From assembly GCF_001274535.1 (NCBI RefSeq), contig NZ_CP012410.1, forward strand, positions 2,267,126-2,331,125: 64,000 bases of DNA. The letters run 5' to 3'. This document shows, in pieces, positions 32,778 to 60,120 of the stretch. Below the pieces are notes generated by a model. It ran no database searches and was not told the origin of the DNA. It worked only from the letters and a program-made list of their open reading frames with translations. Within the stretch, counting starts at the first letter, position 1, and the number at the start of each line of letters is the position of its first letter. Origin of the DNA: Leptotrichia sp. oral taxon 212. Its GTDB lineage: Bacteria; Fusobacteriota; Fusobacteriia; Fusobacteriales; Leptotrichiaceae. The position numbers were made by a program, and so were the translations under genes.

Positions 32778-32953
32778 CTTTTTTACATCCTTTCCATATT
32801 TTAAATATAATTATATTTTACTTTTATATAAGTTTTTATTTACTTTCATAAAATTTTAGAAAATATTATGAACAAAAGTTTTATATTATATTTATTTTTC
32901 TTTTCATAAAGTATAACAAAAAAGTACAGTTTTTTCAAGATAGGCAATAAATA

Positions 32954-33005
32954 AAAGTCACATTTCAGAATTATTCTGCTTCAGTCATAATTCTGATAGT
33001 GACTT
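32954..33005 (-). terminator. Terminator of the Tad2-like gene
   Basis: AGTCAC/GTGACT outer stem with an inner CAGAATTAT/ATAATTCTG stem (32954-33005), followed on the minus strand by TTTTATTTATT. It lies 15 bases after the stop codon, so the small gene has its own transcript end. Confidence 0.75.
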
Positions 33006-33019
33006 CCATAAATCTTTTT

Positions 33020-33235
33020 TTAAACTATTTCCCATTCTTTGGCAAACAGTTCAACATAATTTGGAATCCAAGGTACTCTGCCGAATCTGCTTTCTACGTA
33101 TAAGTAAGGGTGTGTGTTACATAGAGTCCCGTCAAGATTTTGAACTTTTACTCTGACATCATTGTTCCATTTAGGTAATCTCATTGCTTTTGCACCATCT
33201 TCTCTTATTACTGTAAATGCTTCTGAAAAGGTCAT
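33020..33235 (-). CDS. DUF2829 / Tad2-like small protein
   Basis: A 71-residue cytoplasmic protein. It starts MTFSEAFTVIREDGAKAMRL and ends with VPWIPNYVELFAKEWEIV. The PW-x-P-x7-A-x-[DE]-W-E ending and the F-x-x-A start are the pattern of DUF2829, the family of the phage anti-Thoeris protein Tad2, which binds cyclic ADP-ribose isomers. Here it stands alone between pgi and prs with an AAGGAG site and its own terminator; no phage genes are around. It could be an anti-defence relic or a host nucleotide-signal binder. The family call is by motif only. Confidence 0.65.
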   Translation of the reverse strand: MTFSEAFTVIREDGAKAMRLPKWNNDVRVKVQNLDGTLCNTHPYLYVESRFGRVPWIPNYVELFAKEWEIV

Positions 33236-33425
33236 AATACCAACTCCTTCAAAATAAATTATTTATATATTTTATATAAAAATCAGAGCCTGCCCCAAAT
33301 TATCTGCTATATCCAGTTATATTTCTAATCTATTTAATTCTTTACATTACAATTATAATACAAAAATATTAAAAATCAAGACATTTTTTTATTGATTTTA
33401 TGTTTTTAAATGTTAATTTTTATTT

Positions 33426-34409
33426 TCAACATTGTTCTGAAGGCAGCTCAAAAAGATCACTTATCGGTTCATCTTTTGCTATCCTTTTTATTGTTTCAGC
33501 AAATATTTCACTTGCTGACAATATTCTAAGCTTATCAAATCTCTGTTCTTCTGACAAATAAATACTATCTGTCACAACAATTTTTGTAAATACGGATTCC
33601 TTCAACCTTTCTATTGCAGGTCCTGAAAATACAGCATGTGTTGCACATGCATATACTTTTACAGCTCCTCTTTCTATAAGGACTTTGGCGGCATTACATA
33701 TAGTCCCTGCAGTATCGATCATATCATCTACTAGAATTACTTTTTTTCCTTCCACATCTCCAATTATGTTCATTACTTCACACTCATTTGCTTTTTGTCT
33801 TCTCTTATCTATTATTGCTAAAGGTGTATGTAGCCATTTTGCCAATCCTCTAGCTCTCTTAACTCCTCCTACATCAGGAGATACCACAACAGTATTTTCA
33901 GGTCCAAAGTCATATTTTATAAAATGCTTTGCCAGAATAGGCAATGCTTCCATATGATCAACAGGAATATCAAAGAATCCCTGCGTCTGCCTTGCATGTA
34001 AATCCATAGTCACCACTCTTGTAGCTCCTGCCTCTGCCAGAAGATTTGCAACTAATTTTGCAGTTATTGGTTCTCTTGGGCTTGCAGTCCTGTCCTGTCT
34101 TGCATAACCATAGTAAGGAATTATGGCTATTATTTCTTCCGCAGAAGCCCTTCTTAAAGCATCAATAAAAACTAGAAGTTCCATAATACTTTCATTTACT
34201 GGATTTGAAGTGGACTGAATAACAAACACTTTACATCCTCTTACGCTTTCTTCAGGTTTTATAAAAACTTCACCATCTGAAAATCTGTTCATTTTTACTA
34301 AGTTTAAGTCCATTTCAAGATCTTCTGACACTTTTTTTGCCAAATCCTGGCTTGAAGATCCTGCAAAAATCTTAATTTTCTTCTTTTCTTCCTCGCTTAA
34401 AACTAGCAT
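33426..34409 (-). CDS. prs: Ribose-phosphate pyrophosphokinase
   Basis: A 327-residue cytoplasmic enzyme that makes PRPP from ribose 5-phosphate and ATP. It shows the ATP-binding YYGYARQDRTASPREPI, the metal-binding DLHARQTQGFFDIPVD, VVSPDVGGVKRARGLA and the PRPP loop VILVDDMIDTAGT. Length and order match class I PRPP synthase. A GAAAGGA site precedes the start. It supplies nucleotide and amino acid synthesis. No operon partner is evident. Confidence 0.95.
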   Translation of the reverse strand: MLVLSEEEKKKIKIFAGSSSQDLAKKVSEDLEMDLNLVKMNRFSDGEVFIKPEESVRGCKVFVIQSTSNPVNESIMELLVFIDALRRASAEEIIAIIPYYGYARQDRTASPREPITAKLVANLLAEAGATRVVTMDLHARQTQGFFDIPVDHMEALPILAKHFIKYDFGPENTVVVSPDVGGVKRARGLAKWLHTPLAIIDKRRQKANECEVMNIIGDVEGKKVILVDDMIDTAGTICNAAKVLIERGAVKVYACATHAVFSGPAIERLKESVFTKIVVTDSIYLSEEQRFDKLRILSASEIFAETIKRIAKDEPISDLFELPSEQC

Positions 34410-57383: not shown

Positions 57384-57641
57384 TTATTTAGAATATTTCA
57401 TTATAGTTATTCCTGGAATTTCCCAAGGTTCTCGAATAAATACCTGTTCTATCTCCATTCCACCCAAATACATCCCACCTTGATAACCTAGTGGTTTCTC
57501 ATATATTACTGTACCTGCTGCTATTTTTACAGCATATACTTGTCCTATTGGTGAACTATAAACTTCCCATTTTCCTGTATTTTGGTTAATATTAAAAGTA
57601 TTTGTTTTTACATCAGTCCAATAAGGTTTAACAGCTGTATC
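57384..57641 (-). pseudogene. Polymorphic-toxin C-terminal fragment
   Basis: In a frame one base off the end of the FHA fragment, an open stretch reads DTAVKPYWTDVKTNTFNIN ... YAVKIAAGTVIYEKPLGYQG ... IEQVFIREPWEIPGITI and ends KYSK (stop 57384). One added G at about 57641 would fuse it to NTGG of the FHA fragment. Place and size (about 85 residues) fit a CdiA-CT toxin tip. The GTVIYEKPLG..GG pattern looks like an ADP-ribose-handling TNT-type toxin, but I cannot confirm it. Confidence 0.5.
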
Positions 57642-58629
57642 CTCCAGTATTCAATGTGAAACCGCCATCTATCAGTGAACCTGTCTGCCTTGTTTTGCCC
57701 TTCACTTCAAGCATTCCACTTCCTGCAGTGAACTCCGATACTTCCCTTGTTATTCTCTGTACAGTTTTCCCTTGGCTGTAGCCTGCTGAAACACTCTGTA
57801 TGTTTGTATTGTATGTTGTACCCCTGTTACCTTTTGTACTGTTTATTCCTATTCCTGTGCTTATGGAATAGCCTCTGCTCCTTGAATCAAATCTGTCCTG
57901 AAGACTCTCCACTGTGTGGTTACCCTCTATCTTACCTGAAATGCTTCCCGTCTTTATGTCCACTCCGCTGTCTTTTACATCTCCTCCTACATTGTAATGG
58001 CTGTTTCCTTTTGTCTCATCCTTAGGATTTGTATAGTATACTCCTTCACTTTTACTCTTACTTCCACTTGTACTCGCTGTAACTGTTGTGCCATTGCCCT
58101 TGAAAGGGTTCATTCCGTCTGATCCCTTGGCAAGACTGAGTCCATATCCTCTGCTTCCCGTATTTTCCTTTATTGTGCTCTTTCCTGCTTCCCTTATGAT
58201 GTTTCCTGTTATATTGTATACCGTGTCGCCTTCATTGAGCATGTTAAGATTGACAGTATGGAGGTTCTTTCCGTTATACTCCACTCCGCCCTTTACATGT
58301 AGTCTGCTTCCAACTGACATTCTTTCTTCCCTGTGGTAGCTGTTCTGGCTCTTGCTGTAGTTCAGTGATGCACTCGTTGCCAGCGGGCTCGTGAACAGGT
58401 TTCCAAATGCATTCATAGCTCCCATTCCTGCACTGAATGCTCCAAATCCTGAATTGAGGTAGTCTTCCCTATGTTTTGACTTCCCGATTGCCCTTCCTGC
58501 ATCTATAAGCTGTTTTGCCGCTCCTATTACAGGTATTCCTACTGTCACTCCTACTCCTATGTAGGTCTTTTTGCTGACTGTATCAATCCCCCACTTTTTC
58601 AAAAAAGTGGGCAAAAACTCCCAACTCAA
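57628..58629 (-). pseudogene. Filamentous-haemagglutinin C-terminal fragment
   Basis: 333 open codons without a real start (the first codon is TTG inside a palindrome). The sequence is the late part of an FHA/CdiA-type exoprotein: GKSKHREDYLNSGFGAFSAG, MSVGSRLHVKGGVEYNGK, NLNMLNEGDTVYNITGNII and other beta-helix repeats rich in G, S, T and N. It ends NTGGYSC just before a toxin-like frame. The missing front would be thousands of residues. It is a remnant left by recombination at the palindrome on its left border (58605-58752). Confidence 0.75.
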
Positions 58630-58750
58630 ATTATTTCATGTTCAAAAATAATCAGTTCGCTAAAAAATCACAAACTCACTCCGCTTAGACAGTGATTTTT
58701 CTTTACGCTCATCTATTTATTTTTTCACTGAAATAATTTGAATGTTGGGG
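58620..58750. repeat. Nested palindromic element
   Basis: CCCAACTCAAATTATTTCA (58621-58638) is inverted at 58729-58749 with a two-base gap. Inside, AAAAATCAC (58663-58671) pairs with GTGATTTTT (58692-58700). Next to it, 58590-58612 forms another palindrome (CCCACTTTTT..AAAAAGTGGG). It marks the border between two haemagglutinin remnants and is a likely recombination site. Confidence 0.6.
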
Positions 58751-58775
58751 GTTCTAATAAACAATTATTTTTTCC

Positions 58776-58997
58776 TTACTCCTTGTTTTTGTTTATTTCT
58801 TCCATTTTTTTCCTATGTTCCTTCTCTTTTCTTTTTTCTCTACGTTTTTCTTCTCTTTCATTTGATTTCCTACGAACTTCAGAGCAAAAGCTACCTCCAT
58901 CATCTGATAAAATACAGTACATTCCTATACATGAATTTGTCAAAAGCATTATTGACAATAATAATACTATTATCTTTCCCTTAATTAGATATTTCAT
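58776..58997 (-). CDS. Small lipoprotein with charged tail
   Basis: 73 residues. The lipoprotein signal IIVLLLSIMLLTNSC has the likely lipidated Cys at 23. After a short Cys/Gly-containing stretch (IGMYCILSDDGGSFC) comes a strongly charged helix (RKSNEREEKRREKRKEKEH). GAGGTG lies eight bases before the start. It overlaps the end of the tpsA-like frame by 17 bases, as a partner or immunity gene might. No family is recognised; function unknown. Confidence 0.55.
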   Translation of the reverse strand: MKYLIKGKIIVLLLSIMLLTNSCIGMYCILSDDGGSFCSEVRRKSNEREEKRREKRKEKEHRKKMEEINKNKE

Positions 58998-60120
58998 TTC
59001 TCAAACACCTCAAATAAGTATTTATTTCCGGAACTGTAACATTTACTCTTTCAGGATGTTCTACATTCATATTTCCCCTATTATTTATACTGTTCAGTCC
59101 TTTATCATGATATCTTCCATTCTCATAGTTAGTTATCATTCTGCTTCTGTTTAACTCATCCACCGCCTTAACTACTCCCGGAGTATCTGTCCATACTCCC
59201 GGTCCATTCATTATGAGATTTATATAGTCCTTCTGGTTATCTCTTTCATAACTGGTTATCTTCATTTGTGCCGTTGCATAATCTATGTGTCCTTCTCTAT
59301 ATGAATTTATAGCATTGTGAATATTCGAAGAATATACTGGTGAAGTATATGTATATCTTCTATGTCCGTTATTTGTGACAACATTTTCTACTGCATTCCT
59401 TACTGTTTCAGAAGTTGCTATTTGATAATCTGTCATTTTACTGAAATCCATTTTTTCTATTCCTTTTTGTTCAGCAAGTAATGCATCCTTCTGGTTTCTT
59501 GCTATCTGTACTATCTCACTGTTTGAAAGAACATAGTTATTTTTACTGTCATAGGGACTTCCATTCTTTGCATAGTATATTTCTGTTTCAACATATCCCT
59601 TTACGACAGGCTTGTTATTAAATATTACTCCATTTCCATATCTTGTAAGTGACTTTCCTACAGGTATATTCGCTGACATTATCTGATCTATATCTCTTGC
59701 AGAACTTTTTCCGTTATCAAGGTTCAATGCATTTGTTTCTCCTATAAAGAATCCTTTTAAACTTTCATTATTTCCTACTTCATCATCTACATTAGTTGCT
59801 GAACCTATTACCTTTCCTCCTGCTTTTTCAGTCTGCACCACAATATTTTTATTATTGTTTAGGATAAGTCCCCTCTCTCCTACCTGGAGTTCCCTCAGGG
59901 AGTTGTAGCCCGTTCCGTTCCCGTTCGGCCTTGCTATGTCTATCTAATCCACCCCTGAAGCTGTCCGTGTGACTTTTGTTCCGATATTTGCAGGATCCGG
60001 AACTATTTCAGAAAATATGTTGAAATTAAAAAACAGCAGCAAAACAAAAGCCACTGTCTTCTGACCAAGTCTATATCTGAAATATTCTGATATGTTCCTC
60101 CCCACATTCTTAAACTCCAT
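58981..60120 (-). pseudogene. TpsA/CdiA-like secreted protein, with amber codon
   Basis: The ATG at 60120 starts with an extended signal peptide (NISEYFRYRLGQKTVAFVLLLFFN). The start of a two-partner-secretion domain follows: IDIARPNGNGTGYNSLRELQ and VGERGLILNNNKNIVV. A TAG at 59944-59946 (codon 59) interrupts GVD-IDIA; a C to T change from CAG (Gln) would explain it. The frame then stays open to 58981 (about 380 codons). The rest of the TPS domain and all repeats are missing. The C-terminal 250 residues (MDFSKMTDYQIATSETVRNA ... INTYLRCLRN) are unrelated and unknown, perhaps an effector tip joined by deletion. Confidence 0.75.

Follow-up and report, generated by a model that had tools for sequence, protein, structure and literature searches.

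We report that the chromosome of Leptotrichia sp. oral taxon 212 carries a stand-alone gene of the Tad2-like family, which was found in the 64,000-nucleotide stretch analysed here (hereafter the window); it codes for a 71-residue protein with a predicted Tad2 fold, is conserved under purifying selection in three genomes, and has relatives chiefly in phages and prophages. Tad2 proteins are phage weapons against Thoeris and CBASS, and the canonical anti-Thoeris form is a sponge, a homotetramer that binds gcADPR or His-ADPR. Our preferred reading, whose chances we judge to be evenly balanced, is that the protein would be a captured and domesticated single-gene version of this fold that binds a ligand, probably one other than gcADPR. 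The features of the locus are listed below, where G006 and G015 denote two sister-genus genomes:

33020–33235, minus strand: Tad2-like (PF11195/DUF2829) protein of 71 amino acids, identified by an ATG-start reading frame, Pfam and the predicted fold
33244–33249, minus strand: ribosome site AAGGAG, 8 nucleotides before the ATG, kept in G006 and G015
33352–33379, minus strand: sigma-70-like promoter TTGATT-16-TATAAT, marked by three-genome conservation
32945–33014, minus strand: terminator-like hairpin directly 3′ of the stop codon
35430–37044, minus strand: rmlC and rmlB of the dTDP-rhamnose pathway, neighbours common to G006 and G015

Family and predicted fold

The protein encoded by the minus strand of 33020–33235 (MTFSEAFTVIREDGAKAMRLPKWNNDVRVKVQNLDGTLCNTHPYLYVESRFGRVPWIPNYVELFAKEWEIV) scores 42.1 bits (E 1.3e-10) with the Pfam profile PF11195 (Tad2-like), whose curated cut-off is 25, with residues 1–71 spanning positions 1–73 of the 73-position profile, and the same profile is matched by 17 of 17 aligned relatives. 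Thus, the DUF2829/Tad2 membership that the initial annotation had read from motifs holds over the full length of the profile; the C-terminal motif VPW-x-PN...KEWE that it had cited is present, with a spacer of x6 and not x7. In the PHROGs collection the protein matches phrog_1048 and phrog_872, both annotated as of unknown function, while NCBIfam matches of 14.8 and 12.9 bits to biotin ligase were rejected as chance. The gene is present in one copy in the host genome (one contig, 2.44 Mb), is similar to its neighbours in GC and third-position GC, and lies slightly below them in codon adaptation (0.63 versus 0.68–0.76).

The best of five AlphaFold2 models (mean pLDDT from 53 to 86.5), built from an alignment of 17 relatives, has a mean pLDDT of 86.5, with a weak loop at residues 31–40 (about 64). 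A Foldseek search of the PDB with this single-chain model returned Tad2 as all of the top 18 matches. In structural alignments with VIA-align, the predicted model superposes on SPO1 Tad2 (8SME) with a Z of 10.4 and an rmsd of 2.0 over 69 residues, and on ModTad2, AcrIIA7/HgmTad2 and SptTad2 with Z of 9.1–10.2; the best non-Tad2 chain reaches a Z of only 4.6. Many Tad2-like proteins are likewise among the top matches to viral predicted structures, and a profile-profile comparison matches canonical Tad2 at E 6e-9. Since a phmmer search of PDB sequences with the single protein gave no match, and the family profile ranked Tad2 chains first only weakly (E 0.025–0.42), it is the fold search that carries the likeness to Tad2.

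Motifs and gene neighbours of the short subfamily

The seven canonical Tad2 sequences that we aligned all share GWNGK-x-MF and WxPSxxD. Neither GWNG nor WxPSxxD occurs in any of 78 distinct sequences of the short subfamily represented by the 71-residue protein, of which 76 display RLPxWxx(D/E)V or a close variant of it. The alignment also reveals that the short protein is missing the middle insertion of canonical Tad2 (71 versus 85–108 residues). The conserved set that replaces the canonical motifs comprises RLPxWxxDV, Q32, PYLYVESRFGxVPW and E62. Beyond the search pattern, invariant residues include L20, W23, P55, W56, E62 and W68, with R19, Q32 and T41 nearly invariant, and the conservation of residues 45–52 is partly built in by the LYVESRFG search pattern. 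The middle insertion of Tad2 has been tied to cyclic-dinucleotide binding, and its gcADPR pocket has been placed in the β1–β2 loop and other loops (PMC12043709); by our alignment, GWNGK maps to that β1–β2 loop. By motif, then, the 71-residue protein is not a canonical anti-Thoeris sponge, and because another conserved set stands in place of the canonical motifs, gcADPR held in the manner of SPO1 Tad2 is probably not its ligand. The simplest reading of these sequences would be the same scaffold with another ligand.

The characterized Tad2 proteins illustrate both the likeness and the divergence. SPO1 Tad2 (gp34.65; 8SME, 8SMF, 8SMG) has the Pfam family, the 69-residue fold and W23/W56/W68 in common with the chromosomal protein; however, it is 89 residues long against 71 and phage-borne rather than chromosomal, and its GWNGK, WxPSxxD and middle insertion are missing here. 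ModTad2 (9EIB, His-ADPR), HgmTad2/AcrIIA7 (8KBI, 8KBJ, 8KBK) and SptTad2 (8WJD) share the fold at about 20% identity, and with 86–104 residues they possess the middle insertion, which the chromosomal protein lacks. A Tannerellaceae copy of the short gene (L022:327-668) has about 40 extra residues at the site of the missing insertion.

In at least 11 phage loci the short-subfamily gene directly adjoins a gene for a canonical Tad2, an arrangement that suggests a pair with divided ligands. Phage contigs with this adjacency are L039, L046, L049, L050, L057 and L063, and further L064, L065, L077, L084 and L038.

The settings of the phage genes vary. On phage contigs, terminase, portal or minor head genes often stand on one side of the gene and the major head genes on the other; the Enterococcus phages have it upstream of the genes for dUTPase and guanylate kinase; and prophages in the host's own bacterial family have it next to the endolysin gene. 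These varied sites imply that it behaves as an accessory gene rather than belonging to a single structural module. They also bear on the possibility that the protein acts on a protein partner: the host would turn a protein of phage type, as a decoy or dominant-negative factor, against incoming phages that encode it themselves. The near-invariance of many residues across phage copies from several phyla, and the presence of relatives in prophages of the host's bacterial family, would fit such a role; however, the unrelated phage sites (head module, tail-lysin border, dUTPase–guanylate kinase region) oppose one structural partner, and several solved Tad2 chains hold nucleotide-type ligands, going by their entry titles. 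We regard a protein partner as unlikely.

We consider it quite improbable that selection keeps the protein as an ordinary sponge against Thoeris or CBASS, for the protection of prophages or the silencing of toxic signalling. Such a role would agree with the identical Pfam family and fold and with the frequent placement of subfamily genes beside canonical Tad2 in phages, but it is opposed by the lack of both motifs and of the insertion and by the host itself: neither the host genome nor G006 has a match to ThsB_TIR, TIR_2 or SMODS in searches whose positive controls matched. The sequestration of the Thoeris signal that the initial annotation had entertained is weakened on the same grounds.

Genomic setting, descent and selection

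The Tad2-like gene is flanked on the same strand by pgi (NCBIfam NF010697) and prs (NF002320), as the initial annotation had stated for the window. However, this is a local arrangement: none of the 29 prs loci of relatives that were examined showed pgi within 1.5 kb, and we rejected pgi–prs as a conserved setting. The order in the window is rmlB–rmlC, a glycosyltransferase gene, prs and then the Tad2-like gene, and in G006 and G015 the gene directly follows rmlB–rmlC, which is thus the neighbour shared across the related genomes. None of the ten flanking proteins matched phage structural, lysis or integration proteins in PHROGs; the placement away from phage genes was judged from PHROGs and NCBIfam for the window flanks, and from homology and by eye for G006 and G015. 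The earlier description of a stand-alone chromosomal gene with no phage gene nearby is therefore borne out. The genome encodes two ribose-phosphate pyrophosphokinases that are 82% identical (window 33426-34409 and G000:C1:448098-449075), the window copy sitting in the dTDP-rhamnose region. Elsewhere in the window, at 57628-59841, two ORFs (333 and 286 residues) look by eye like pieces of the C-terminal region of a large protein, either a filamentous adhesin or one of contact-dependent inhibition.

About 90 relatives, spread across phyla, sit in phage or prophage contigs. Searches with LYVESRFG as the pattern recovered 14 loci from several phyla in GTDB contigs and, in IMG/VR, 80 of at least 90 loci; INPHARED contributed 16 phages, 12 of them phages of Enterococcus, and plasmids gave no match. 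In the tree the three chromosomal genes form one clade (support 100/99), which groups with copies of the Enterococcus phage 9183/vipetofem type (100/86) and apart from the prophage copies of their own bacterial family; the tree has 69 columns and is unrooted, without an outgroup, and the direction of transfer is drawn from the distribution. The DUF2829 proteins of Enterococcus phages 9183, vipetofem and VPE25 belong to the same short subfamily and to this nearest group, that of phage 9183 having HPYLYVESRFGxVPWxPTQVE in common with the 71-residue protein; they differ in being phage genes, at about 50% identity to the chromosomal one. The same-family prophage proteins (G025, G028, G002), encoded beside an endolysin gene, are of the same subfamily at 51–52% identity but form a separate branch, which indicates a separate acquisition. 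Given the grouping with Enterococcus phage copies and the phage-borne relatives, capture from a phage appears the likeliest origin of the chromosomal gene, and the phage ancestry raised at the outset is judged likely from these relatives and their loci.

The converse, that phages acquired their copies from an old bacterial gene, could draw on the unrooted tree, the long branch of the chromosomal clade and its strong purifying selection; nevertheless, PF11195 is matched in only 8 genomes among 149 relatives, of the five same-family matches in genomes other than the host's, three are prophage-borne, and the phage copies span several phyla, making this descent very unlikely.

Orthologues in the two sister-genus genomes share 98.6% (G006) and 91.5% (G015) protein identity with the host protein, and these three genomes are the only carriers of the chromosomal form. 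Among them, dN is 0.006–0.042, dS 0.51–0.67 and dN/dS 0.009–0.083, the gene differing from that of G006 by one amino-acid change among about 20 nucleotide differences. The −35/−10 pair, ribosome site and start codon are aligned across all three; the promoter takes the form TTG(A/C)TT...TATAAT in each, this conservation being the evidence for it, as the promoter scan alone is not above chance, and it predicts a 5′ leader of about 110 nucleotides. The hairpin 3′ of the stop (−25.3 kcal/mol, z −7.1) is absent from the list of a simple terminator scan, yet G006 and G015 have strong hairpins of unrelated sequence at the same site; being single-copy, the hairpin sequence rules out a repeat element as its source, and there are no Rfam families near the gene. 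The conserved signals and co-located hairpins are as expected of one gene maintained as its own transcription unit, in line with the ribosome site and terminator first ascribed to the gene. The gene is thus domesticated and kept by selection (dN/dS 0.01–0.08), and a prophage remnant in decay, which the phage or prophage nature of nearly all relatives might bring to mind, is extremely improbable given the selection, the lone amino-acid change, the conserved promoter and the absence of other phage genes nearby.

Proposed function and meaning

In our preferred reading, a phage-type Tad2-fold gene would have been captured on the chromosome, near rmlB–rmlC, in the lineage of the host genus and its sister genus, and retained there as an independent unit of transcription, one gene with a promoter and a terminator of its own. 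The protein would form a small homo-oligomer, as Tad2 does, hold a small and probably nucleotide-like ligand between subunits, and buffer or sense it. We infer the binding of a small molecule, and the caution with which binding was first proposed was apt. A sponge-like action on another small molecule would be the leading candidate, with about an even chance, and a role in modulating some nucleotide signal in the host is possible.

The host genome has a diadenylate (c-di-AMP) cyclase. No GGDEF protein was found in it, and c-di-GMP is unlikely as a ligand that is the host's own signal. A type III-like CRISPR module lies at L166:6819-12658 (about G000:C1:586818-592657), with genes for NucC (223.6 bits, PADLOC), a Cas10 palm protein of 655 residues, a Csm3-like RAMP, a Csm5gr7-like protein and a 405-residue protein without a match; CRISPR-like repeats close to it appear as a frame repeating ILIVAECNVN (L166:4115-4495). 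The 18 kb surrounding Csm1 in G006 yielded neither NucC nor a protein closely related to this Cas10, so there is no simple co-occurrence with the Tad2-like gene. It is conceivable, if distinctly unlikely, that a phage sponge was turned into a regulator of the host's own nucleotide signalling with a new ligand pocket on the Tad2 fold, for example by buffering the cyclic oligoadenylate of the Cas10/NucC module or c-di-AMP.

A search of open-licence papers gave no report of a host-domesticated DUF2829 copy among the titles and abstracts listed. The 71-residue protein is best classed under PF11195 and not among the anti-Thoeris proteins, and reading this family as "anti-Thoeris" would mislead annotators for the short subfamily. 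This motif-divergent subfamily, whose phage members often neighbour a canonical Tad2, points to a further ligand, and a resident copy under selection in a host without detected Thoeris or CBASS would mean a second life of the Tad2 fold in bacteria.
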